From positions 1 to 40,375 of IMG/VR virus record IMGVR_UViG_3300018080_000310: a stretch of 40,375 nt of DNA. One strand, 5' to 3'. The position numbers were made by a program, and so were the translations under genes. Positions 913 through 40,375 of the stretch are shown piece by piece. The notes beneath the pieces are model-generated. The model was given only the letters and a program-made list of their open reading frames with translations, made no database searches and had not been told where the DNA came from. How positions within the stretch are numbered: the stretch's first letter is position 1; each line of letters starts with the position of its first letter. The stretch comes from a virus.

Positions 913-2421
913 ATGAAGAAAGAAAAATCAAAAGCAAAATCGTACGCCGAGATCGCTGAAGAGCATCAGGAAAAAAAGAAGGCCAAGAGAGCGCCGAAGG
1001 TGTATGAAATGCGTGATGCTTTCTTCGAAGACGAGGTGAGCGATGGTCTTCTCTACAACGAGAACGACAAATCGTTTTATAAATATTCAGAAGGGGCATA
1101 TCTCATTTTCCCCATTGATGAGTTCGAGACAATGCTCGATGAGTTCTTGCTAAGGAGATACAACGGACGCGTCGACGTGACAACACAAACAATCCGCGAG
1201 CTTACACGCGCAGTCATCCGTGTCAACGATGAAGATAAACTCATGAAGGTAACCGGCGATTACCGATCGCCAAGGTCAGCATTCAAGGACAAGACCTTCA
1301 ACTTCGAAACCTTCAAGGTAGAAAAGCATGATCCAAAGAAGCCGTGCTTTCACAAGTTCGACTTCGATTTACCGACTAAGCCTCATCAGACCCCAGCCTT
1401 AGACAGCTACTTCGACAATACATTCATAGACGTAGAAGCAAATGAAGATAAGGAACTTAAGGAATTCATGCTGGATGTTCTCGCCTACTACATATCGCCG
1501 GTGCATAGTCCTGTCCCAGTTGCGGTTATTCTCCACGGCTCGGGATCAAATGGTAAGTCTATATTCCTGAAGCTCGTAAGGTGGATTGTCGGGGAGCAAT
1601 TCTGCTCAGCGCTCTCGATGGAAGATTTGTCAGAAAAGTTTGGCGCGGCTGAGCTTATTGGTAAGAAGGTAAACATCGTAGACGAAGATCAGTCGCGCTA
1701 TGTGAGACCAGATAAGATCAAGGCCCTCATCACGAGAGATATGATCAAAGCTGAGCGTAAGTTCGAAGCACCGTTCTTCTTCACGCCTCAAGCGAAGCAC
1801 ATCATCTCTACAAACAAGGAGCTGAAGTTCGAGGACATTGACTATGCGATCACGAGGCGACTCAATGTTGTGCCGTTCCTCCGGACCTTCGTCCCGCCGA
1901 ACTCAAATGATCCAAGTGTACCAAGGCCGGACGGGAAGTTTGTCGTCGAAGGTAACATGGATCTTGAAGATCAGTTAAAGAAAGAGCTGCCCGCTATCGT
2001 GTATAAACTCATTCAAAGGTTGAAAGCACTTCAGGCAAATAAGTATATTCTTAAAATGCCAAAGACACTTTCCTCTACGAAGAGACAGCTGGAGATCTCA
2101 AGTTCATCTGCCCTTGAGTTCTTCCACGAATACTATGAATACAATCCGGATTATGAGGAGCTTGTCTCTACTGAAATGGTTTACGAACAATATAAAAGTT
2201 GGTACGAGTTCAGTGGAAAACCGGAACGATTCATGATGCAGTCGAGGCATTTCTGGGACGTGATCAATAAGAACTTCCCGTCTACAAAGACAGAGAAGAA
2301 AACCTACTATATGCAGAAGCGCACAGGCGCCAAGCAACACATGTACCCCATCAGGTTCAACAATGGAGGGGACCCCGGACAACCTCAGATGGAGCCAGGA
2401 TTTGAAGACCGGATTCTATGA
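913..2421 (+). CDS. D5/P4-type superfamily 3 replicative helicase
   Basis: This 502-residue protein is the helicase half of a phage/plasmid P4-family initiator. A variable N-terminal region is followed by the SF3 ATPase core: Walker A G-S-G-S-N-G-K-S at residues 209-216, an acidic Walker B region (IVDEDQSRY) near 254-262, and motif C with S-T-N near residue 298. A C-terminal helical or winged-helix region is likely. Related proteins are hexameric 3'-5' helicases that load at the origin. No primase domain is present; a separate primase-polymerase lies at 35480. The start ATG 913 has no Shine-Dalgarno but follows ACCTCGCAA at 902-910, which matches the 5' arm of the RNA at 3068. The stop overlaps the next start (ATGA 2418-2421). 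Confidence 0.9.
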   Translation: MKKEKSKAKSYAEIAEEHQEKKKAKRAPKVYEMRDAFFEDEVSDGLLYNENDKSFYKYSEGAYLIFPIDEFETMLDEFLLRRYNGRVDVTTQTIRELTRAVIRVNDEDKLMKVTGDYRSPRSAFKDKTFNFETFKVEKHDPKKPCFHKFDFDLPTKPHQTPALDSYFDNTFIDVEANEDKELKEFMLDVLAYYISPVHSPVPVAVILHGSGSNGKSIFLKLVRWIVGEQFCSALSMEDLSEKFGAAELIGKKVNIVDEDQSRYVRPDKIKALITRDMIKAERKFEAPFFFTPQAKHIISTNKELKFEDIDYAITRRLNVVPFLRTFVPPNSNDPSVPRPDGKFVVEGNMDLEDQLKKELPAIVYKLIQRLKALQANKYILKMPKTLSSTKRQLEISSSSALEFFHEYYEYNPDYEELVSTEMVYEQYKSWYEFSGKPERFMMQSRHFWDVINKNFPSTKTEKKTYYMQKRTGAKQHMYPIRFNNGGDPGQPQMEPGFEDRIL

Positions 2422-2786: not shown

Positions 2787-2821
2787 AGGGGTGTGACACC
2801 TTTAAAATTAACTCGTTGTAT

Positions 2822-3058
2822 ATGCCACACGATGAACAAGATAGGAGAGGCGCAACAGAGAATGGATACAATCTTGATACACGGTTTAAAGAGCCGCGTG
2901 TTCGAGTCACAATGTTCTTTGAACCTGAAATTATAAAACAAATGGATGAGGTTATGCTCAAAGAAGGGCATCAAAGTAACCTCAGCCGTGGGAGAACTAA
3001 GTTTTTTCAAGAGATGTTTCAGTTCTATGTAGAAAAGAAAGGATTCACTTTCGATTAA
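2822..3058 (+). CDS. Ribbon-helix-helix transcriptional regulator
   Basis: This protein of 78 residues is chosen from ATG 2822; a TTG two codons earlier (2816) is possible but less likely. The central and C-terminal part has the ribbon-helix-helix pattern: a basic strand P-R-V-R-V-T-M-F-F, then helix EIIKQMDEVMLKEG, a short turn and a second helix (KFFQEMFQFYVEKK). Such proteins bind DNA as dimers with the beta strand in the major groove, often on tandem short boxes, and act as repressors or copy-number regulators. The 9-bp tandem boxes at its own promoter and at three other sites are the obvious target. The polar N-terminus of about 25 residues is probably disordered. Confidence 0.8.
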   Translation: MPHDEQDRRGATENGYNLDTRFKEPRVRVTMFFEPEIIKQMDEVMLKEGHQSNLSRGRTKFFQEMFQFYVEKKGFTFD

Positions 3059-3296: not shown

Positions 3297-3734
3297 ATGA
3301 CTATGACAAAAGATTTATCGGAAAAATACGCAGCACTCGAGAACGATGACGAGTTTGCTGCACCCCCTTCGAACTGGTTTAAGTTCGGAAAGATCGGGAA
3401 TGTAATTCGCGGAACCCTAGTAGGTGTTCAAGAACGTGAAGACGCATACGACCCAACAAAGAAGCAGAAGATCTATGAGATCAAAGCAGAACTTGGATAC
3501 TTTAATGACATTGTCAGCAAAGTAGTACAAGACGATGCGACTGAACTTACTGCTGGCGAGGTCTACCTCGTAGGTGGTAAGACAATCATTGATCGTAACA
3601 TGCGCCATGCCGTTGTCGGACAGCGTGTGGAGCTACGGTACACTGACGACTTCGATGTCGGCGGTGGAAATGTAGCTAAGACCATTGAGGTAAAACTTGG
3701 TGGCATGGATCCTGACTACTCAGCTGCTGAGTAG
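3297..3734 (+). CDS. Probable OB-fold ssDNA-binding protein
   Basis: Starting at ATG 3297 gives 145 residues (ATG 3303 is an alternative). The frame is open back to 3228 but that part is the 3' arm of the structured RNA and is not coding-like. The protein has an acidic linker, then a core rich in short beta strands (W-F-K-F-G-K-I-G-N-V-I-R-G-T-L) and an acidic C-terminal end. This architecture, the length and the place in the replication cluster resemble phage ssDNA-binding proteins with an OB fold. I see no specific signature, so the call is tentative. It is flanked by the RNA element and by the 11-nt sequence at 3753-3763 that can pair with that RNA. Confidence 0.7.
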   Translation: MTMTKDLSEKYAALENDDEFAAPPSNWFKFGKIGNVIRGTLVGVQEREDAYDPTKKQKIYEIKAELGYFNDIVSKVVQDDATELTAGEVYLVGGKTIIDRNMRHAVVGQRVELRYTDDFDVGGGNVAKTIEVKLGGMDPDYSAAE

Positions 3735-3750
3735 TTGGACCACGGACCAT

Positions 3751-3764
3751 ACCTCGCAACCCCC
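3751..3764 (+). promoter_or_regulatory. Copy of the RNA 5' arm, complementary to its 3' arm
   Basis: ACCTCGCAACCCCC repeats the 5' arm of the RNA closing stem (3068-3080). CTCGCAACCCC at 3753-3763 is the perfect complement of GGGGTTGCGAG at 3230-3240, with no G-U, so it could compete with the native closing stem. It lies in the 61-nt gap between the OB-fold and MoxR genes. Confidence 0.5.
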
Positions 3765-3795
3765 AGACCCTATTAAAATTAACACTAAGATACTT

Positions 3796-4806
3796 ATGAC
3801 GATTTTTGGTAACGAAAGAAATTTAGATTTAATTAATTTTGCTGTAGACAAAGACCTATCCGTGCTGCTTGTTGGTGAAACCGGAACGGGTAAGACTACC
3901 ATGATTCGCGAAGTCGCGAAGAAAAAGAAGCAGAAGCTTGTACGTTTCAACCTCACAGGTGAGACAACAGTGGATGACTTCGTTGGTAAGTACACCCTAA
4001 AGGACGGTGAAACTGTTTGGCAGGACGGTGTTTTATTACAAGCAATGAAAGAAGGTAAGTGGCTTGTCGTTGACGAGATCAACTCAGCACTTCCCGAGAT
4101 CCTGTTCGTTCTCCACTCTTTGCTTGACGATGATAAGTATGTCGTCGTTCCACAGCATGAAGGTGAGATTGTGAAGCCTCATAAGAATTTCCGGTTCTTC
4201 GCAACGATGAACCCAACGGACGAATACTCTGGAACAAAAGAACTCAACAAGGCGTTCAAGTCTCGTTTCGATATTACGATTCAGACTGAGTATGCGACTA
4301 ATGAACACGAGGCTCAGATTATTATGGAGCGTACGGATAACGCAGTTGATGAGGGAGTATGCGTGACGATGATCGGTGTGGCTAATGAGATTCGAAAGAT
4401 GAAAGCTCGCCACGAGATCTTCTTCACCCTGTCTACTCGAGACCTTATTCAGTGGGCGCGACTCGTACCTAAGTTTGGACTTAAGGAATCGTTCGAGTTT
4501 GCTATTCTCAACAAGGCGAACGGGGATACTGAGAAGGTTAGGCAGATAGCTGAAAATACTTTCGGCGCATTTGAAAACCTTGAAGGTAAGGAAGACCTAT
4601 ACTCTCCAAAGAACTGGCTCAAGACTGTAAAGATGTTTGAGGAAGCGAACCTTGCAAGAGAGAAAGCTCTTGATAGCCGAGAGGAGCAGCTACAGAAATA
4701 CGAGAAGCGTATTCTTGGTGGCTTCGGTGAAAAGATTATTAATGCATTGGGTGAGTCGTTTGAAGAAAAGACTGAAGAAGAAACTGCCGACGAACCAAAA
4801 AAGTAG
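3796..4806 (+). CDS. MoxR/CobS-like AAA+ ATPase
   Basis: This 336-residue ATPase starts at ATG 3796; the open frame upstream to 3697 overlaps the previous gene and is not used. The AAA+ motifs are clear: Walker A G-E-T-G-T-G-K-T at residues 27-34, Walker B L-V-V-D-E-I-N near 91-97, sensor 1 F-F-A-T-M-N-P near 134-140, and an arginine-finger segment K-S-R-F-D near 155-159. The C-terminus is charged and coiled-coil-like. MoxR-family proteins act as hexamers that remodel a partner recruited by a VWA-domain protein, and the next gene, 6 nt downstream, is exactly such a partner. Phages often carry this CobS/CobT-like pair; its role in infection is not established. Confidence 0.88.
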   Translation: MTIFGNERNLDLINFAVDKDLSVLLVGETGTGKTTMIREVAKKKKQKLVRFNLTGETTVDDFVGKYTLKDGETVWQDGVLLQAMKEGKWLVVDEINSALPEILFVLHSLLDDDKYVVVPQHEGEIVKPHKNFRFFATMNPTDEYSGTKELNKAFKSRFDITIQTEYATNEHEAQIIMERTDNAVDEGVCVTMIGVANEIRKMKARHEIFFTLSTRDLIQWARLVPKFGLKESFEFAILNKANGDTEKVRQIAENTFGAFENLEGKEDLYSPKNWLKTVKMFEEANLAREKALDSREEQLQKYEKRILGGFGEKIINALGESFEEKTEEETADEPKK

Positions 4807-4812
4807 CGGCGT

Positions 4813-6045
4813 ATGTCAAAGAATCTTTATGAAGAAATAAAAAAAGAGTTGGAAAGAGAATCATGGACGACAAGGCTAACTGCGCCACCAATCTCAAAGA
4901 TGGTTGAGGTGGACGTGAAACATGGTGACCATCACCACACTGAATACATCGACGTACCGGGTGATGCCACTTACCAAGAGATCCAAAATGAAATCGCTCG
5001 TAACTTAAATAATGACCAAATAAAAAACATCCTCTCTGTCCGTGTACCTAATCTGGACGCTGAAGAAGGTGGCGGAAGTTCCGGCTCAGGTTCCGGCTCA
5101 GGTTCAGCACCAGGAAAATCCGGGGTTCGTTTCGCTAAAGGACCAGGTTCTCCGAAGGTTGAGATGGGTGAGGACGGTGAGCTTAAAGTTGTGGGTGTTC
5201 CTACCCGTGGAGGGATTGAGAAGGTCGAGAAAGAACAAAAGGACTCTGAACTGGGTCTAAGTGATTCTGTCCTCGCTCAGAAGGTGAAGTCAATCATTGA
5301 AGACAACCGCATGAAGCGTGTGATTCCTAATACTAAATCAGGGAAGCTTAACACTCGGAGCCTTTGGCGGGCAAAGACAGGACGCGAAAACCTTTTCAAG
5401 AAAGCGAAAGAACGAAAGGGGAAAGACTACCATGTGACTATCATGGTCGATCAGTCGGGGTCTATGACTGACTGGGCGGAGGACGCACACCGAGCATGTG
5501 TTCTTGCAGCTAACTCTCTCATATCTGCCGGATGTGATGTCGAAGTATTCGGGTTCTATCTCGAGACCGAGAAAAATGAATACTGGTTTAAGAGCGCCTA
5601 CGGTGAGGACCCGCTAACGATTGATGAGACCCTTAGCAAGCTTCCTGTAGAAAAGCACTTGAGACAGTACCTGAGAGACAACGAGAAGCACTTCAATTCT
5701 GAGGCGCTTCTTGAAGAGATGAACAATACGTTCTCGGGTACGGGTAACGCTGACTACGAGTCACTGTCCTACATGTACCGTCGCCTAGCGAAGATCGACA
5801 ATAAGGAAAAGATACTCTTGGTTATTACAGATGGAGAACCCGCTTCCCCTAACCATAGCTTTAGAGATCCAGCCCTTCTACGCTCTCTTATCACGAATAA
5901 CAAGGGCGTGAAGACAATGGCACTGTCTATTGGTAGTTGGCACGTAGAGGATATTTATCCTCAGTATGCTATCGTTAATGATGTAGATGAATTCAATGAA
6001 GAGTTCATTAAACTTCTTGAGAGAAACATTAAACGAGGCCTATGA
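4813..6045 (+). CDS. CobT-like VWA-domain protein, partner of the MoxR ATPase
   Basis: This 410-residue protein has a mixed N-terminal region, a low-complexity Ser-Gly linker around residues 87-100 (built from a 12-bp repeat at about 5078-5105), a basic middle part and a C-terminal von Willebrand factor A domain. The MIDAS motif D-Q-S-G-S-M starts at residue 213, and T-D-G-E-P near 338-342 supplies the later metal ligand. The layout matches CobT-type VWA proteins, which pair with CobS/MoxR ATPases. The acidic, flexible N-terminus may bind the substrate. The gene lies 6 nt after the ATPase and overlaps the next gene by 4 nt. A cobalt-chelation role is unlikely because no large CobN-like subunit is present. 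Confidence 0.85.
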   Translation: MSKNLYEEIKKELERESWTTRLTAPPISKMVEVDVKHGDHHHTEYIDVPGDATYQEIQNEIARNLNNDQIKNILSVRVPNLDAEEGGGSSGSGSGSGSAPGKSGVRFAKGPGSPKVEMGEDGELKVVGVPTRGGIEKVEKEQKDSELGLSDSVLAQKVKSIIEDNRMKRVIPNTKSGKLNTRSLWRAKTGRENLFKKAKERKGKDYHVTIMVDQSGSMTDWAEDAHRACVLAANSLISAGCDVEVFGFYLETEKNEYWFKSAYGEDPLTIDETLSKLPVEKHLRQYLRDNEKHFNSEALLEEMNNTFSGTGNADYESLSYMYRRLAKIDNKEKILLVITDGEPASPNHSFRDPALLRSLITNNKGVKTMALSIGSWHVEDIYPQYAIVNDVDEFNEEFIKLLERNIKRGL

Positions 6046-31272: not shown

Positions 31273-31290
31273 GTTGTACATGTTGTACAA
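31273..31290. promoter_or_regulatory. Tandem 9-bp operator upstream of TerL
   Basis: GTTGTACAT GTTGTACAA is two 9-bp units. It is also a 7-3-7 palindrome (TTGTACA-TGT-TGTACAA). The same unit is found at the ribbon-helix-helix promoter and at both edges of the origin. Confidence 0.65.
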
Positions 31291-32113: not shown

Positions 32114-32374
32114 ATGAAAACAAAAACTTACAAGGAACTGAAACAAGAGTTTCAGGAAATCAAAAAACTATGGAGGCAAGAGGTTAAAGAAAAACTCGAG
32201 GCTACATATAACGAAGCAGATAAGGAGCATAAAGAATATTACCTTGACAGATACGGAAGCCTTGAAGGGTACGGGGAATTTAATAATGATACCGACCATG
32301 AAAATTCAGCATGGGAGCAGGGTTATCTGTACGGACTAAGTGAAGCTATACGGCTATTAAATGAAAATAACTAA
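32114..32374 (+). CDS. Unknown small protein, paralogue of 32725-33024
   Basis: This 86-residue protein is the first gene of the rightward arm. The N-terminal half is a charged helix. The C-terminal half carries R-Y-G-S-L-E-G-Y-G-E-F-N-N, then A-W-E-Q-G-Y-L-Y-G-L, almost identical to the second small protein 600 nt downstream, and the DNA is also clearly similar there. The aromatic-rich block suggests a conserved compact fold. No family is recognised. Being first after the strongest promoter, it may act very early. Confidence 0.75.
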   Translation: MKTKTYKELKQEFQEIKKLWRQEVKEKLEATYNEADKEHKEYYLDRYGSLEGYGEFNNDTDHENSAWEQGYLYGLSEAIRLLNENN

Positions 32375-32724: not shown

Positions 32725-33024
32725 ATGACAAAACTATCACAGGCAATCATTAAGATTGAACAGTTAGCAAGAACGCAAGCCTTAGGTTCATCAACTACTG
32801 ATGACATTATCAGGATAATCAAGGAGCTAAATAACAACAGCCTGAACGCCCTGAAAAAAGAATACAGGCAAGCAGACAAGGAATACGCCGTATACTACAA
32901 AAATAGATACGGAAGCCTTGAAGGGTATGGCGAATTCAACAACGAGACATACGGCGAAAATACAGCGTGGGAGCAGGGTTATCTGTACGGACTAAATCAA
33001 GCAATTCAACTACTAAATAAATAA
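32725..33024 (+). CDS. Unknown small protein, paralogue of 32114-32374
   Basis: This 99-residue protein has an extra N-terminal helix of about 35 residues. The second half, K-N-R-Y-G-S-L-E-G-Y-G-E-F-N-N and A-W-E-Q-G-Y-L-Y-G-L, is shared with the gene at 32114. The matching DNA segments (about 32240-32340 and 32905-33000) show a local duplication with later divergence. The function is unknown. Confidence 0.72.
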   Translation: MTKLSQAIIKIEQLARTQALGSSTTDDIIRIIKELNNNSLNALKKEYRQADKEYAVYYKNRYGSLEGYGEFNNETYGENTAWEQGYLYGLNQAIQLLNK

Positions 33025-34478: not shown

Positions 34479-34970
34479 TTAAAGCTGAATAACACAACGG
34501 GCGTTCTCTTCACAAAAGGCACGGGAAAAACTCCCGCGTCTTTTCTTTTCTCCACTTTTCGTGAACCGCTCTTGAAATGCTACCTCAATATCCACCACAT
34601 AGACCACCCATTTACTATCACCCGCATAATTTTTAAAGCCAAACACCAGATACGCACCAGCGTTATCAAACCAAACATAGTCGCACGGCTTTGTGTCCAC
34701 CGACATATCACTAATCTTATGCCCCGTGGGGCGTACAGCTTTCCGGATTAACTTTAACTCTTCACGCGCACCACAAGCCCGCAAGCCTTCTACCCACTGC
34801 TGATCTTTTACCTCGCTAAACGGGACAGACTCACCACCTCGAGAACTTTTTAATTCAAACATGCCACTCACCACGCCAGTGTTTCTCATCATACTAATCC
34901 CCTCGGGAGTTTTCATAAACCGCGAGAACCTTCCCTGCAATTCCTTCTCTTTAAATGAACCATTAGACAT
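34479..34970 (-). CDS. RecU/VRR-type Holliday-junction resolvase-like nuclease
   Basis: From ATG 34970 this is 163 residues. It has the PD-(D/E)XK pattern of RecU-like resolvases: G-M-F-E-L-K near residues 35-40 gives the E-x-K pair, P-F-S-E-V-K-D-Q-Q-W-V-E-G-L near 50-63 gives the conserved Q-containing helix, then H-K-I-S-D-M and P-C-D-Y-V-W-F and a final strand (AYLVFGF). The enzyme would cut branched DNA before packaging. It reads against its neighbours and starts beside the origin, where the operator at 35030 could control it. The call is by motif; remote nuclease families are possible. Confidence 0.7.
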   Translation of the reverse strand: MSNGSFKEKELQGRFSRFMKTPEGISMMRNTGVVSGMFELKSSRGGESVPFSEVKDQQWVEGLRACGAREELKLIRKAVRPTGHKISDMSVDTKPCDYVWFDNAGAYLVFGFKNYAGDSKWVVYVVDIEVAFQERFTKSGEKKRRGSFSRAFCEENARCVIQL

Positions 34971-35035
34971 ATAAAAGATCCAACTATTACCACAAAAATA
35001 TACCACCAAAAGCACCCCCTCTTATAGTCGTACAT

Positions 35036-35041
35036 GTTGTA
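35036..35041. promoter_or_regulatory. Regulator box GTTGTA at left origin edge
   Basis: GTACATGTTGTAC (35030-35042) carries the same box as the ribbon-helix-helix promoter. It overlaps the first iteron and lies upstream of the leftward nuclease gene. Confidence 0.5.
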
Positions 35042-35121
35042 CGGAACTGACATCTTTTTTGAAGATACCACATTTTAAGCCAGCCTTAGCCAATTCTTAC
35101 CAAAAGCACCTCAAAAACCAA

Positions 35122-35158
35122 TCTCAGTTCCGTCCCAGTTCCATCTCAGTTCCATAAG
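35122..35158. repeat. Iteron triplet, left arm
   Basis: Three CAGTTCC boxes begin at 35125, 35136 and 35147, an 11-bp spacing that keeps them on one DNA face. The mirror copy is 35341-35377 (boxes at 35346, 35357, 35368), identical at 34 of 37 positions. Confidence 0.85.
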
Positions 35159-35162
35159 ATTC

Positions 35163-35180
35163 TTAGCCAACCTTAGCTAA
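35163..35180. repeat. GCTAACCTTAGC-type palindrome inside the origin
   Basis: TTAGCCAACCTTAGCTAA is one of five related sites (31441, 31530, 35079-35091, here, 40010-40027), all noncoding. This one lies between the outer and inner iteron groups. Confidence 0.55.
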
Positions 35181-35190
35181 AAAACGCATT

Positions 35191-35214
35191 TATGGAACTG
35201 GGGAACTGAGAAAA
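35191..35214. repeat. Inner perfect inverted repeat, left arm
   Basis: This carries two GGAACTG boxes at 35194 and 35202. It is an exact reverse complement of 35285-35308, with 70 bp between the arms. Confidence 0.9.
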
Positions 35215-35284
35215 GGGGTATTATTAATATAAATATTTTTTTTACGCTTTTTCTCTATTATTTTTTTTCTCCACCAATATAGTG
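35215..35284. other. AT-rich core of the origin
   Basis: These 70 bp between the inner repeats consist mostly of A and T with long T-runs. It is the probable DNA-unwinding element. Confidence 0.7.
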
Positions 35285-35308
35285 TTTTCTCAGTTCCCCA
35301 GTTCCATA
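35285..35308. repeat. Inner perfect inverted repeat, right arm
   Basis: This carries two CAGTTCC boxes at 35291 and 35299 and is the exact reverse complement of 35191-35214. Confidence 0.9.
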
Positions 35309-35340
35309 ACTCAACTTTAAGCTGTACCTACAGCCTAAAA

Positions 35341-35377
35341 CCTATGGAACTGACATGGAACTGGGACGGAACTGACA
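35341..35377. repeat. Iteron triplet, right arm
   Basis: Three GGAACTG boxes at 11-bp spacing mirror 35122-35158. Both triplets are separated from the inner repeats by exactly 32 bp, so the design is symmetric. Confidence 0.85.
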
Positions 35378-35380
35378 ACT

Positions 35381-35389
35381 TTATCCACA
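35381..35389 (+). promoter_or_regulatory. DnaA box TTATCCACA
   Basis: This is an exact match to the strong bacterial DnaA box, lying between the right iteron triplet and the right outer repeat. It suggests host DnaA helps open the origin. Confidence 0.75.
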
Positions 35390-35400
35390 ATCTCAGTTCC

Positions 35401-35436
35401 GTACAACATGTACAACCTTTACAACCTTTACAACAA
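35401..35436 (+). promoter_or_regulatory. Four tandem 9-bp TACAAC operators
   Basis: TACAAC begins at 35402, 35411, 35420 and 35429, exactly 9 bp apart. The array overlaps the right outer repeat and ends about 30 bp before the primase -10. It is the longest array of the regulator box in the window. Confidence 0.7.
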
Positions 35437-35467
35437 ATGTTATTATATTTGTATAAAAGATAACACA

Positions 35468-35473
35468 TATAAT
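35468..35473 (+). promoter_or_regulatory. TATAAT box 6 nt before the primase start
   Basis: A perfect -10 sits six bases before the ATG at 35480, so transcription should begin at the start codon. A second candidate (TATAAA 35452-35457) would give a short leader of about 16 nt. Confidence 0.6.
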
Positions 35474-35479
35474 AACCAT

Positions 35480-36331
35480 ATGAACGACACTCTGGAGCAG
35501 GCTCTCCTCTACCACAAAACTGGTCTCTCCGTCATACCCATTAGAGAGAAAGACAAGCGTCCCGCAGTCCCCTCTTGGAAAACCTTTCAGACGACAAGAG
35601 CTGACGCTAAAACGATTGAAAAGCATTTCACAGATCATCCGGACGATAACATTGGTATTGTCACGGGACGCATTTCTGGAATCACAGTCATCGATATAGA
35701 TATTAAAGGAATACCGGAAGGCGAATTGGATGAGAACCTCACGAAAATCGTGAACGCTATCTGCGGAACGGATAATGTCTCACGCGAACGCTTTGCCGTC
35801 GTGCTAACTGGCTCCGGTGGACTTCACATCTACACGAAATACATTGATATGAAGACTCAGCTTCAAATCCCAGCGAGCCAGCTTGTTCCGGGCGCACTTG
35901 GCATGATTGACGTGAAATCAGACGGGGGATATGTTCTCGCACCACCCTCTACCCACCCAAATGGCCGGCTGTACACGCACCATCCTGCCTTTCCTGAGCT
36001 TTCTACACTCTTACATGACAAGAACCTCGCAACACTCTCAAAACATCTCCTACGAGCTCTCAGAAGCTCTGACGAGGCCAACAGAACAGTCGACTGGGAC
36101 AAAATCATGAAAGAAACCACCGCAGGAAACAGAAACGAGAACACAACACGGCTTCTCGGCCTCCTCATTGGTTCACTTCCACCCTCTGAATGGGAAACAG
36201 TCGCTCTTCCATGCGCCGTTGCATGGAATCTACAATTCGTAAAGCCCGATCCGCTCACCTATAAAGAAGTGGAGCGCATATTCCGGTCCATCGCCGACAC
36301 ACACATTAAAAAATATACTTTAGAAGATTAA
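35480..36331 (+). CDS. Primase-polymerase (bifunctional prim-pol domain)
   Basis: From ATG 35480 this is 283 residues; the open frame before it (from 35408) is the operator array. It has the prim-pol pattern: A-L-L-Y-H-K-T-G-L-S-V-I-P-I near residues 8-21, the catalytic acidic strand V-I-D-I-D-I-K-G near 71-78, T-G-S-G-G-L-H-I-Y near 112-120, and K-S-D-G-G-Y-V-L-A-P-P-S near 149-160. The enzyme makes primers and extends them. The helicase half of the usual P4-type protein is separate, at 913. Both should act at the origin directly upstream. The C-terminal third is helical. Confidence 0.88.
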   Translation: MNDTLEQALLYHKTGLSVIPIREKDKRPAVPSWKTFQTTRADAKTIEKHFTDHPDDNIGIVTGRISGITVIDIDIKGIPEGELDENLTKIVNAICGTDNVSRERFAVVLTGSGGLHIYTKYIDMKTQLQIPASQLVPGALGMIDVKSDGGYVLAPPSTHPNGRLYTHHPAFPELSTLLHDKNLATLSKHLLRALRSSDEANRTVDWDKIMKETTAGNRNENTTRLLGLLIGSLPPSEWETVALPCAVAWNLQFVKPDPLTYKEVERIFRSIADTHIKKYTLED

Positions 36332-39203: not shown

Positions 39204-40004
39204 ATGTACACACAAAACACAGCATCCCCACTAAAAATTATCGGGCTTGCCATCGCAGGCTTTCTGCTCCTGTTCACACTGATTGGTTTCTTCTCATCAT
39301 TCACGATTGTGAACGCTGGTGAGCGTGGAGTTATTACAAGACTCGGTAATGTTCAGGATCGTATACTTGATGAAGGATTCCACCTAAAGACTCCATTCAT
39401 TGAACGCGTCATTCATGTCGATGTGACGACACAAAAGGCAGAGGTTGCCGCAGATGCAGCGAGTCGAGACCTTCAGTCAGTCGACACGACGATTGCCCTA
39501 AACTATTCCGTTAACCCAGACTCGGTGAACCTCTTGTACCAAGAGTATCGTCGTGACTATGTTTCACGCCTCATCTCTCCCGCTATTCAGGAAGCAGTAA
39601 AGGCTGGTACAGCTCAGTTCTCAGCAGAGGAGCTGATCACGAAACGTTCGGAAGTGCGTGATGCTATTAAGCAAGATCTTCATGAGCGTCTACAGCCTGA
39701 AGGAATCAATGTTCAGTCGTTCTCTATCGTGAACTTTACATTCTCACAGGCCTTCGATGATGCGATTGAAGCAAAGCAGGTCGCGGAACAGCGAGCACTC
39801 CAAGCAGAACGGGACTTACAGCGTATCGAAATCGAAGCGAAGCAGCGTATCGCACAGGCTGAAGCTGAGGCGGAGGCTATCCGCATCACCGCGCAGGCCC
39901 TTTCACAGAACGCTGACCTCGTAGAACTTGAAGCTGTGAAGAAATGGAACGGTGTACTCCCAAGTTATACTGGTGGGAACATCCCGTTCTTGAACATTAA
40001 GTAG
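39204..40004 (+). CDS. SPFH/prohibitin-like membrane protein
   Basis: This 266-residue protein has an N-terminal membrane helix (about residues 10-35), then the SPFH domain with the pattern A-G-E-R-G-V-I-T-R-L-G-N-V near 38-50 and E-G-F-H-L-K-T-P-F near 57-65. A long Ala/Glu-rich coiled coil (about 185-235) follows, and then W-N-G-V-L-P-S near the end. Prohibitins form large membrane rings and modulate proteases such as FtsH. A phage copy is unusual and may protect phage proteins or alter the host membrane. It starts just after ACCTCGT, and the Acb2-like gene follows. Confidence 0.88.
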   Translation: MYTQNTASPLKIIGLAIAGFLLLFTLIGFFSSFTIVNAGERGVITRLGNVQDRILDEGFHLKTPFIERVIHVDVTTQKAEVAADAASRDLQSVDTTIALNYSVNPDSVNLLYQEYRRDYVSRLISPAIQEAVKAGTAQFSAEELITKRSEVRDAIKQDLHERLQPEGINVQSFSIVNFTFSQAFDDAIEAKQVAEQRALQAERDLQRIEIEAKQRIAQAEAEAEAIRITAQALSQNADLVELEAVKKWNGVLPSYTGGNIPFLNIK

Positions 40005-40244: not shown

Positions 40245-40375
40245 ATGCCAAAATTCGATTATGTGCCAGTAGATGAAGCTACTAAGGAACTCATGCAAGA
40301 GTACCGAGACGCTTTTCAAGAGCTTTATAACAAAATCAATGACAATATCGAGAACAGTCGAGGTAAGTCATTAGC
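40245..40375 (+). CDS. acb2: Acb2-like anti-CBASS protein, 5' part (gene continues at 70-130)
   Basis: ATG 40245 starts a 63-residue protein cut by the contig end. The first 43 codons and two bases are here and the rest is at 70-130. The N-terminus (residues 1-15) is followed by a helix, L-M-Q-E-Y-R-D-A-F near residues 16-24, then I-E-N-S-R-G-K-S-L-A-L-T-K-L-E-E-A and W54. This is the short two-helix Acb2/Tad1 hairpin that binds cyclic oligonucleotide messengers and blocks CBASS signalling. Length fits Acb2 better than the longer Tad1. There is no Shine-Dalgarno site before the start, unlike the four genes after it. It follows the SPFH gene and a structured leader. Binding has not been tested. 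Confidence 0.8.
   Translation, partial: MPKFDYVPVDEATKELMQEYRDAFQELYNKINDNIENSRGKSL
40307..40375. repeat. Terminal direct repeat, right copy
   Basis: This 69-base exact copy of 1-69 lies inside the Acb2-like coding sequence. It is best read as the overlap left by a circular assembly. Confidence 0.95.

Follow-up and report, generated by a model that had tools for sequence, protein, structure and literature searches.

A putative phage replication origin with opposed CAGTTCC arrays and its architectural counterparts beside SF3 helicase genes

What is the function of an intergenic region in which 12 copies of one heptamer are arranged around an A+T-rich core, and which protein reads them? The question is raised by a 465-bp region in a virus record of 40,375 nucleotides, referred to here in its full length as the window. 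The record looks circular, comprising 40306 bp and a 69-bp end repeat. This repeat is perfect (positions 1–69 are the same as 40307–40375) and may reflect either circular assembly or a terminal repeat. An earlier note on the sequence had proposed a replication origin with facing iterons, and the proposal is supported because opposed doublets of boxes recur with SF3 helicase genes and match both P4 crr and the descriptions of SaPI origins. As judged from sequence comparison, the 40.3-kb circular phage most likely begins its replication at this element, with its own SF3 helicase as the reader. The best joint explanation of the findings is an origin for a self-loading SF3 helicase, with helicase-read boxes, double loading, priming by a primase-polymerase (prim-pol) and operator flanks, and it is held with good confidence.

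A DNA similarity search with the window against phage records gave no matches, and viral contigs queried with the prim-pol, helicase and terminase yielded no close relatives carrying the origin region. A 9-kb fragment (L002) encodes a terminase identical to that of the window; the origin region is absent from it. Elsewhere in the window, a gene for a MoxR-type AAA_5 ATPase is followed by a CobT-like VWA-domain gene (3697–6045), an SPFH/band-7 (prohibitin-like) membrane protein is encoded at 39204–40004, and a related pair of small ORFs (32114–32374 and 32725–33024) carries a 152-bp duplication that is 77% identical.

Anatomy of the intergenic element

The region lies between a leftward ORF (34479–35015, minus strand), the divergent neighbor across the origin in the ORF list, and a rightward stand-alone prim-pol gene (35480–36331, plus strand). 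A primase-polymerase gene had been expected here, and Pfam matches to PF09250 (Prim-Pol) and, weakly, to PriCT_1 bear this out. The region holds 12 copies of CAGTTCC/GGAACTG. The window as a whole contains 20 copies against 4.9 expected (the largest number in 100 shuffles was 14), and 12 of the 20 fall within 35043–35400, with 0.04 expected per 384 bp. No second cluster was found anywhere in the genome.

With > denoting GGAAC on the plus strand, the order of the boxes is > <<< >> core << >>> <. The outer left box, CAGTTCC (35043–35049, minus strand), is followed by a plus-strand triplet at 35125–35153 (35125, 35136 and 35147, in 11-bp steps), which mirrors a minus-strand triplet at 35346–35374 (35346, 35357 and 35368, also in 11-bp steps) about position 35249.5. 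Inside the triplets, the left doublet (35194–35208, minus strand; 35194 and 35202, an 8-bp step) directs GGAAC toward the core and is opposed by the right doublet (35291–35305, plus strand; 35291 and 35299); this layout was used as a search pattern. The outer right box is at 35394–35400 (plus strand). The core (35215–35284) is 77% A+T and is presumed to be the melting region. The six-against-six arrangement of opposed boxes around it, as first described, was recovered in full, with all 12 boxes in place, and is far beyond chance.

The 24-bp arms (35191–35214 and 35285–35308) are perfect and reach 25 bp when 35190 and 35309 are counted. The 21-bp arms (35030–35050 and 35393–35413) are likewise perfect, the 37-bp pair (35122–35158 and 35341–35377) has exactly three mismatches and both inner gaps (35159–35190 and 35309–35340) measure 32 bp, all in agreement with the earlier note. 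In 1000 dinucleotide shuffles of 35015–35479 the longest inverted repeat was at most 18 bp, compared with 25 bp in the element, and the copy number of a 7-mer was at most 8, compared with 12. The description as triple nesting holds in part. All three repeats are present, and five inner box pairs share a single exact dyad at 35249.5. The outermost box pair, however, is centered on 35221.5, 28 bp off the inner dyad, and 13 of the 21 bp of the outer arm are taken up by a regulator-like palindrome with further copies in the phage genome. Since the outer pair is off the axis, the element consists of two concentric repeats and an offset outer pair.

An exact DnaA box, TTATCCACA, lies between the right triplet and the outer box (35381–35389, plus strand). 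It is the sole exact copy in the window, with 0.38 expected genome-wide and 0.004 per 384 bp. The suggested check of GC skew near 35250 gave no origin signal across the window that was separable from gene orientation, with which it is confounded. A weak sigma-70-like match, TTTACA-17-TATTAT (35418–35446, plus strand), which is no more than expected by chance, is a possible prim-pol promoter.

Further sites are superimposed on the array. The palindrome GTACATGTTGTAC (35030–35042; also at 31276 and 35401) makes up the bulk of the outer inverted repeat and is a probable operator on the left flank, as is GTACAACATGTAC (35401–35413) on the right. When up to three mismatches were allowed, TTGTACATGTTGTACAA gave six matches, both strands counted, compared with 0.1 expected. 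These fall in four intergenic places (2769–2785, 31274–31290, 35028–35044 and 35399–35415) that include both origin flanks; the palindrome is complete at 31274 and has two mismatches at 2769. A small ORF (2816–3058) begins just downstream of the site at 2769. By eye it looks like a ribbon-helix-helix regulator, and a Pfam search gave no family matches. The left 32-bp gap contains GCCAACCTTAGC (35166–35177), one of five phage sites of GCYAACCTTAGC (31441, 31530, 35079 with one mismatch, 35166 and 40013; 0.2 expected), two of which are inside the origin region. The right 32-bp gap contains a hyphenated palindrome, GCTGTA-CC-TACAGC (35321–35334), unlike the left-gap motif. The palindromes and gap motifs look like regulator sites overlaid on the origin.

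The element as a whole might instead be a transcription-control array between divergent genes, in which either a phage repressor or the host LexA would bind the boxes as its operators. Its location between divergent ORFs and the occurrence of the flanking palindrome at two other intergenic sites would suit this role, as would GTTCN7GTTC, which is found four times in the two triplets and corresponds to the alphaproteobacterial LexA box GTTC-N7-GTTC. Nevertheless, CAGTTCC forms a single cluster in the genome, an operator array needs neither an A+T-rich core nor 12-fold mirror symmetry, and the architecture follows replication helicase genes with diverse words, as described below. Transcription control is considered very improbable. 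An array for alphaproteobacterial LexA was rejected: only the triplets fit the spacing, the doublets having steps of 8 bp in the window and 7–12 bp, mostly 9 bp, in relatives, and the consensus, being alphaproteobacterial, may not be that of the host.

Opposed doublets at replication helicase loci

IMG/VR was searched for opposed GGAAC doublets flanking a 62–92-bp gap, with the pattern read backwards as the control. At least 119 viral contigs had the pattern, compared with 12 for the reversed control. Among 62 large neighboring proteins, each of which may match several families, the Pfam families were AAA_25 (15), DUF5906 (11), Toprim_3 (10), VapE-like (8), Prim-Pol (6), DUF927 and HTH_56 (5 each), D5_N (4) and a few others. 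In the main clusters the 3' end of the helicase gene is usually toward the element. Ten neighbors in the reversed-control set were mostly terminase, capsid, portal or other genes. Two intergenic control hits with opposed CCTTG/CAAGG doublets (L249, 3772–3880; L253, 1550–1668) adjoin AAA_25 primase-helicases; these could be origins that use a different word. For the two-box pattern CAGTTCC-N4-CAGTTCC, the matches listed were mostly due to chance, and the dense ones adjoin helicase or primase genes. A literature search, covering mainly papers outside subscription, found no description of CAGTTCC/GGAACTG phage iterons.

Because the GGAAC survey had been seeded with the word itself, a word-blind, protein-first test was made. 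SF3 loci were taken by protein patterns, the commonest 6-mer was identified in an interval running from 150 bp upstream of the helicase stop to 400 bp downstream of it, and its array was tested for the geometry doublet–gap (50–105 bp)–doublet. In the viral set of 46 SF3 loci below 80% identity, whose query seeds came partly from GGAAC-pattern loci, 23 had at least six copies of one 6-mer, compared with 8% of control windows. All 12 viral arrays matching the geometry were opposed (2000 orientation shuffles: mean 2.2, maximum 8), as against none in 561 control windows. An identical test, fixed beforehand, was applied to bacterial genome contigs from many phyla, representing the same family in a different collection. 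Here the geometry was found at 23 of 74 SF3 loci, compared with 6 of 870 control windows. Of these 23 arrays, 21 were opposed (shuffles: mean 4.9, maximum 12), as against one in 870 control windows. At least half of the SF3 loci had no clear array in the interval tested.

The box words vary by lineage (GGAACG, TGACAC, GTGAAG, GTGGAG, GGACAC, GGTGAC, GTAACT and others). Box steps in these relatives are 7–12 bp, mostly 8–10 bp, and the cores are 48–84 bp. An association of the architecture with SF3 genes was thus observed, and on these comparisons architecture rather than sequence is what distant relatives conserve. In this phage, origin function is proposed by analogy. Counted against it is the location of the array: whereas most relatives have theirs 3' of the helicase gene, here it is upstream of the prim-pol gene.

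Could DNA secondary structure be the key feature instead, with the arms extruding as a hairpin or cruciform recognized by a replication protein, as proposed for pRN1? In that plasmid a 21-nt stem with a 58-nt loop lies 3' of the prim-pol/SF3 gene and is required for replication (PMC4234260). A single strand of the present element folds at −82.5 kcal/mol, compared with −27.3 kcal/mol for shuffles, and its perfect arms are the longest among the 120 similar elements listed. In the relatives, however, the shared feature is the boxes and not continuous arms. Left and right spacings are unequal in 8 of 33 opposed arrays, and inter-box spacers are often unpaired, with 68% mirror identity in cases of equal spacing, part of which is box extension. 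Cruciform extrusion is also unfavorable with a 70-bp loop. Because pairing between the boxes is incomplete in relatives, a hairpin is less likely, and this reading is considered improbable.

Repeat arrays of similar size also serve as centromeres and cos sites, so that the element might act in partition, as centromere-like repeats, or in packaging, as a cos or pac site. No ParA/ParB-like gene was present among the ORFs scanned, the terminase genes are 4 kb away, and the neighbors of the related elements are replication genes; such a role is barely credible. An SF3-type replication origin is the preferred reading.

The candidate reader of the boxes

The proposed origin reader is an SF3 (D5/SaPI5-Rep-like) replicative helicase encoded at 913–2421 (plus strand) and assigned from Pfam, PDB and model comparisons. 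Pfam gave DUF5906 and Pox_D5, the latter a weak match at residues 403–469. The best PDB sequence match was 7ola, labelled 'Primase-Helicase in SaPI5' (profile E 8e-39); the D5-type primase-helicases of African swine fever virus and poxviruses came next. A model calculated by AlphaFold with 54 aligned sequences had a mean pLDDT of 72.5, the core and C-terminal region being mostly about 90. In the model, residues 384–482 (encoded at 2062–2358, plus strand) form, with good confidence, a helix-rich domain with a strand hairpin; this predicted C-terminal winged-helix-like domain is the proposed box reader. The fold matches were 7ola and the asfivirus and poxvirus SF3 primase-helicases, and since the global TM-scores are only about 0.5, the fold assignment leans mainly on the helicase core.

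Co-variation of box word and helicase C-terminus was observed in one lineage pair, from a phage group other than that of the window. L258 (4001–6451) and L261 (3989–6363) encode near-identical prim-pol/SF3 helicases apart from the last 70 residues; identity is 91% overall, 96% outside these residues and 51% within them. The two arrays have matching positions and a largely similar core between, and the boxes change from GGAACGC to TGACACA. Reading of the boxes by the C-terminal domain would predict such a switch. In the L258/L261 family, the last 70 residues align to the window helicase from residue 401, inside the predicted C-terminal domain. For SCCmec Cch2 the C-terminal domain has been shown to read the boxes, and the same is stated for SaPI Rep, which binds its iterons through this domain (PMC7581432).

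In the window, the array (35043–35400) is 5' of the prim-pol gene and not directly 3' of the helicase gene, and neither a 6-mer array nor a second array follows the helicase stop. Because about 5.8 kb of the circle separates the helicase gene from the origin and the adjacent gene encodes prim-pol, we infer rather than observe that this helicase is the reader. The boxes of an SF3-type origin might also be read by another protein (the prim-pol, a small DNA-binding protein or a host factor) that recruits the helicase. The adjacency of prim-pol would fit this, as would several small ORFs that have no family match. Moreover, GGAAC arrays also occur by AAA_25, Toprim, VapE-like and DUF927/HTH_56 genes. 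HHalign comparison of the C-termini of the GGAAC-array helicase families AAA_25, VapE-like, DUF927/HTH_56 and DUF5906 (L128–L245), for which the alignments are thin, gave no signal of homology. Since the GGAAC word adjoins unrelated helicase families too, it is insufficient to identify the reader, and a shared separate reader would account for these arrays. Nevertheless, among the 120 loci listed no small gene family has a constant place by the arrays, the recurrent neighbors at short distance being helicases, and in L258/L261 the word changes with the helicase itself. P4 alpha (PMC4234260) and SaPI Rep (PMC7581432) also read their own boxes. A separate reader is considered unlikely.

In the preferred reading, in which the helicase recognizes its own origin, the protein encoded at 913–2421 would bind the CAGTTCC boxes through its predicted C-terminal winged-helix domain. 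The opposed arrays would seat two helicase assemblies face to face on either side of the core at 35215–35284, and these would melt the A+T-rich DNA. The adjacent prim-pol (35480–36331) would prime synthesis both ways, and the flanking GTACATGTTGTAC palindromes may be operators of a phage regulator, tying the divergent promoters to the origin. The six boxes per side are suggestive of a hexamer; because relatives have fewer boxes, this count was given no weight. Loading from both sides, here by two hexamers, is plausible by comparison with P4 and SaPI origins, although it is not unprecedented.

The surveys suggest that SF3 helicases of phages and prophages in many phyla commonly have the opposed-doublet layout, that sequence alone suffices to recognize it, and that the C-terminus of the helicase determines its word. 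If true, origins would become findable in uncultured phages, and helicase–origin specificity would be directly testable using natural pairs such as L258/L261. A bolder proposal is that opposed doublets 50–105 bp apart form a general origin code across SF3, AAA_25, VapE-like and Cch/DUF927-like helicases, with words interchangeable via an exchangeable reader domain and the window as an extreme, helicase-uncoupled case with nearly identical arms; it is offered tentatively, as possible rather than probable. The word-independent layout beside SF3 helicases is a more interesting result than the single element of the window.

Comparison with described origins

The earlier note knew of no described phage origin with such symmetry. 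The symmetry has precedents in P4 crr and in the described SaPI origins. As in these systems, the replicon encodes an SF3/D5-like helicase and has short boxes in opposed arrays around an A+T-rich core. To our knowledge, origins loaded by two hexamers have been studied in depth in SV40, and bacterial documentation is mainly from P4 and the staphylococcal islands.

In the P4 record, crr lies just 3' of the alpha gene and has type 1 repeats in the order ++ (4314, 4323), gap, −− (4366, 4384), + (4398), present twice. Like the window, it has opposed doublets of short boxes (in steps of 9–18 bp) with a gap between and extra boxes outside; like the SF3 relatives, it is directly 3' of the SF3 helicase gene. 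P4 ori1 is also apart from the alpha gene, and an array 3' of the helicase is typical, not strictly defining. P4 alpha reportedly uses a winged-helix domain to bind the origin repeats (cited in PMC4234260). The P4 boxes, in contrast, are GGTGAACAG-like and point opposite to those of the window. Moreover, crr consists of a 120-bp sequence in direct duplication and lies apart from ori1; the P4 primase is Toprim-type and fused to the helicase, whereas the prim-pol is separate; and P4 does not have the 24–37-bp near-perfect arms.

SV40 large T-antigen is an SF3 helicase that forms two head-to-head hexamers at opposed recognition sites of the origin (PMC9894130). Unlike the phage, SV40 is a eukaryotic virus, and the DNA-binding domain of T-antigen is N-terminal (PMC7581432). 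The pRN1 system (ORF904) resembles the window in its inverted repeat with a loop of about 60 nt beside a prim-pol and SF3 replication gene, but pRN1 is an archaeal plasmid and its stem-loop is described without iterons. An iteron-plasmid origin of the Rep_3 kind (RepE or pi type, with one-way iterons of about 17–22 bp) was rejected, the window having 7-bp boxes in both orientations; no Rep initiator family was found among the ORFs scanned.

The staphylococcal systems (SaPIbov1, SaPI5 and SCCmec Cch2), as described, share with the window opposed iterons and an SF3/D5-like hexameric helicase. They have a C-terminal reader domain and a primase that is separate or fused, and two hexamers have been proposed (PMC7581432, PMC9894130). 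According to PMC9894130, two head-to-head hexamers are brought to SaPI origins by their oppositely oriented repeats, and the SaPI5 protein (7ola) is the closest solved structure to the window helicase. The origins of these systems are directly downstream of rep, whereas in the window the helicase gene is elsewhere and prim-pol is adjacent. The window is distinguished by the length of its arms, the overlaid operator-like sites, the separate adjacent prim-pol and a helicase gene 5.8 kb away.
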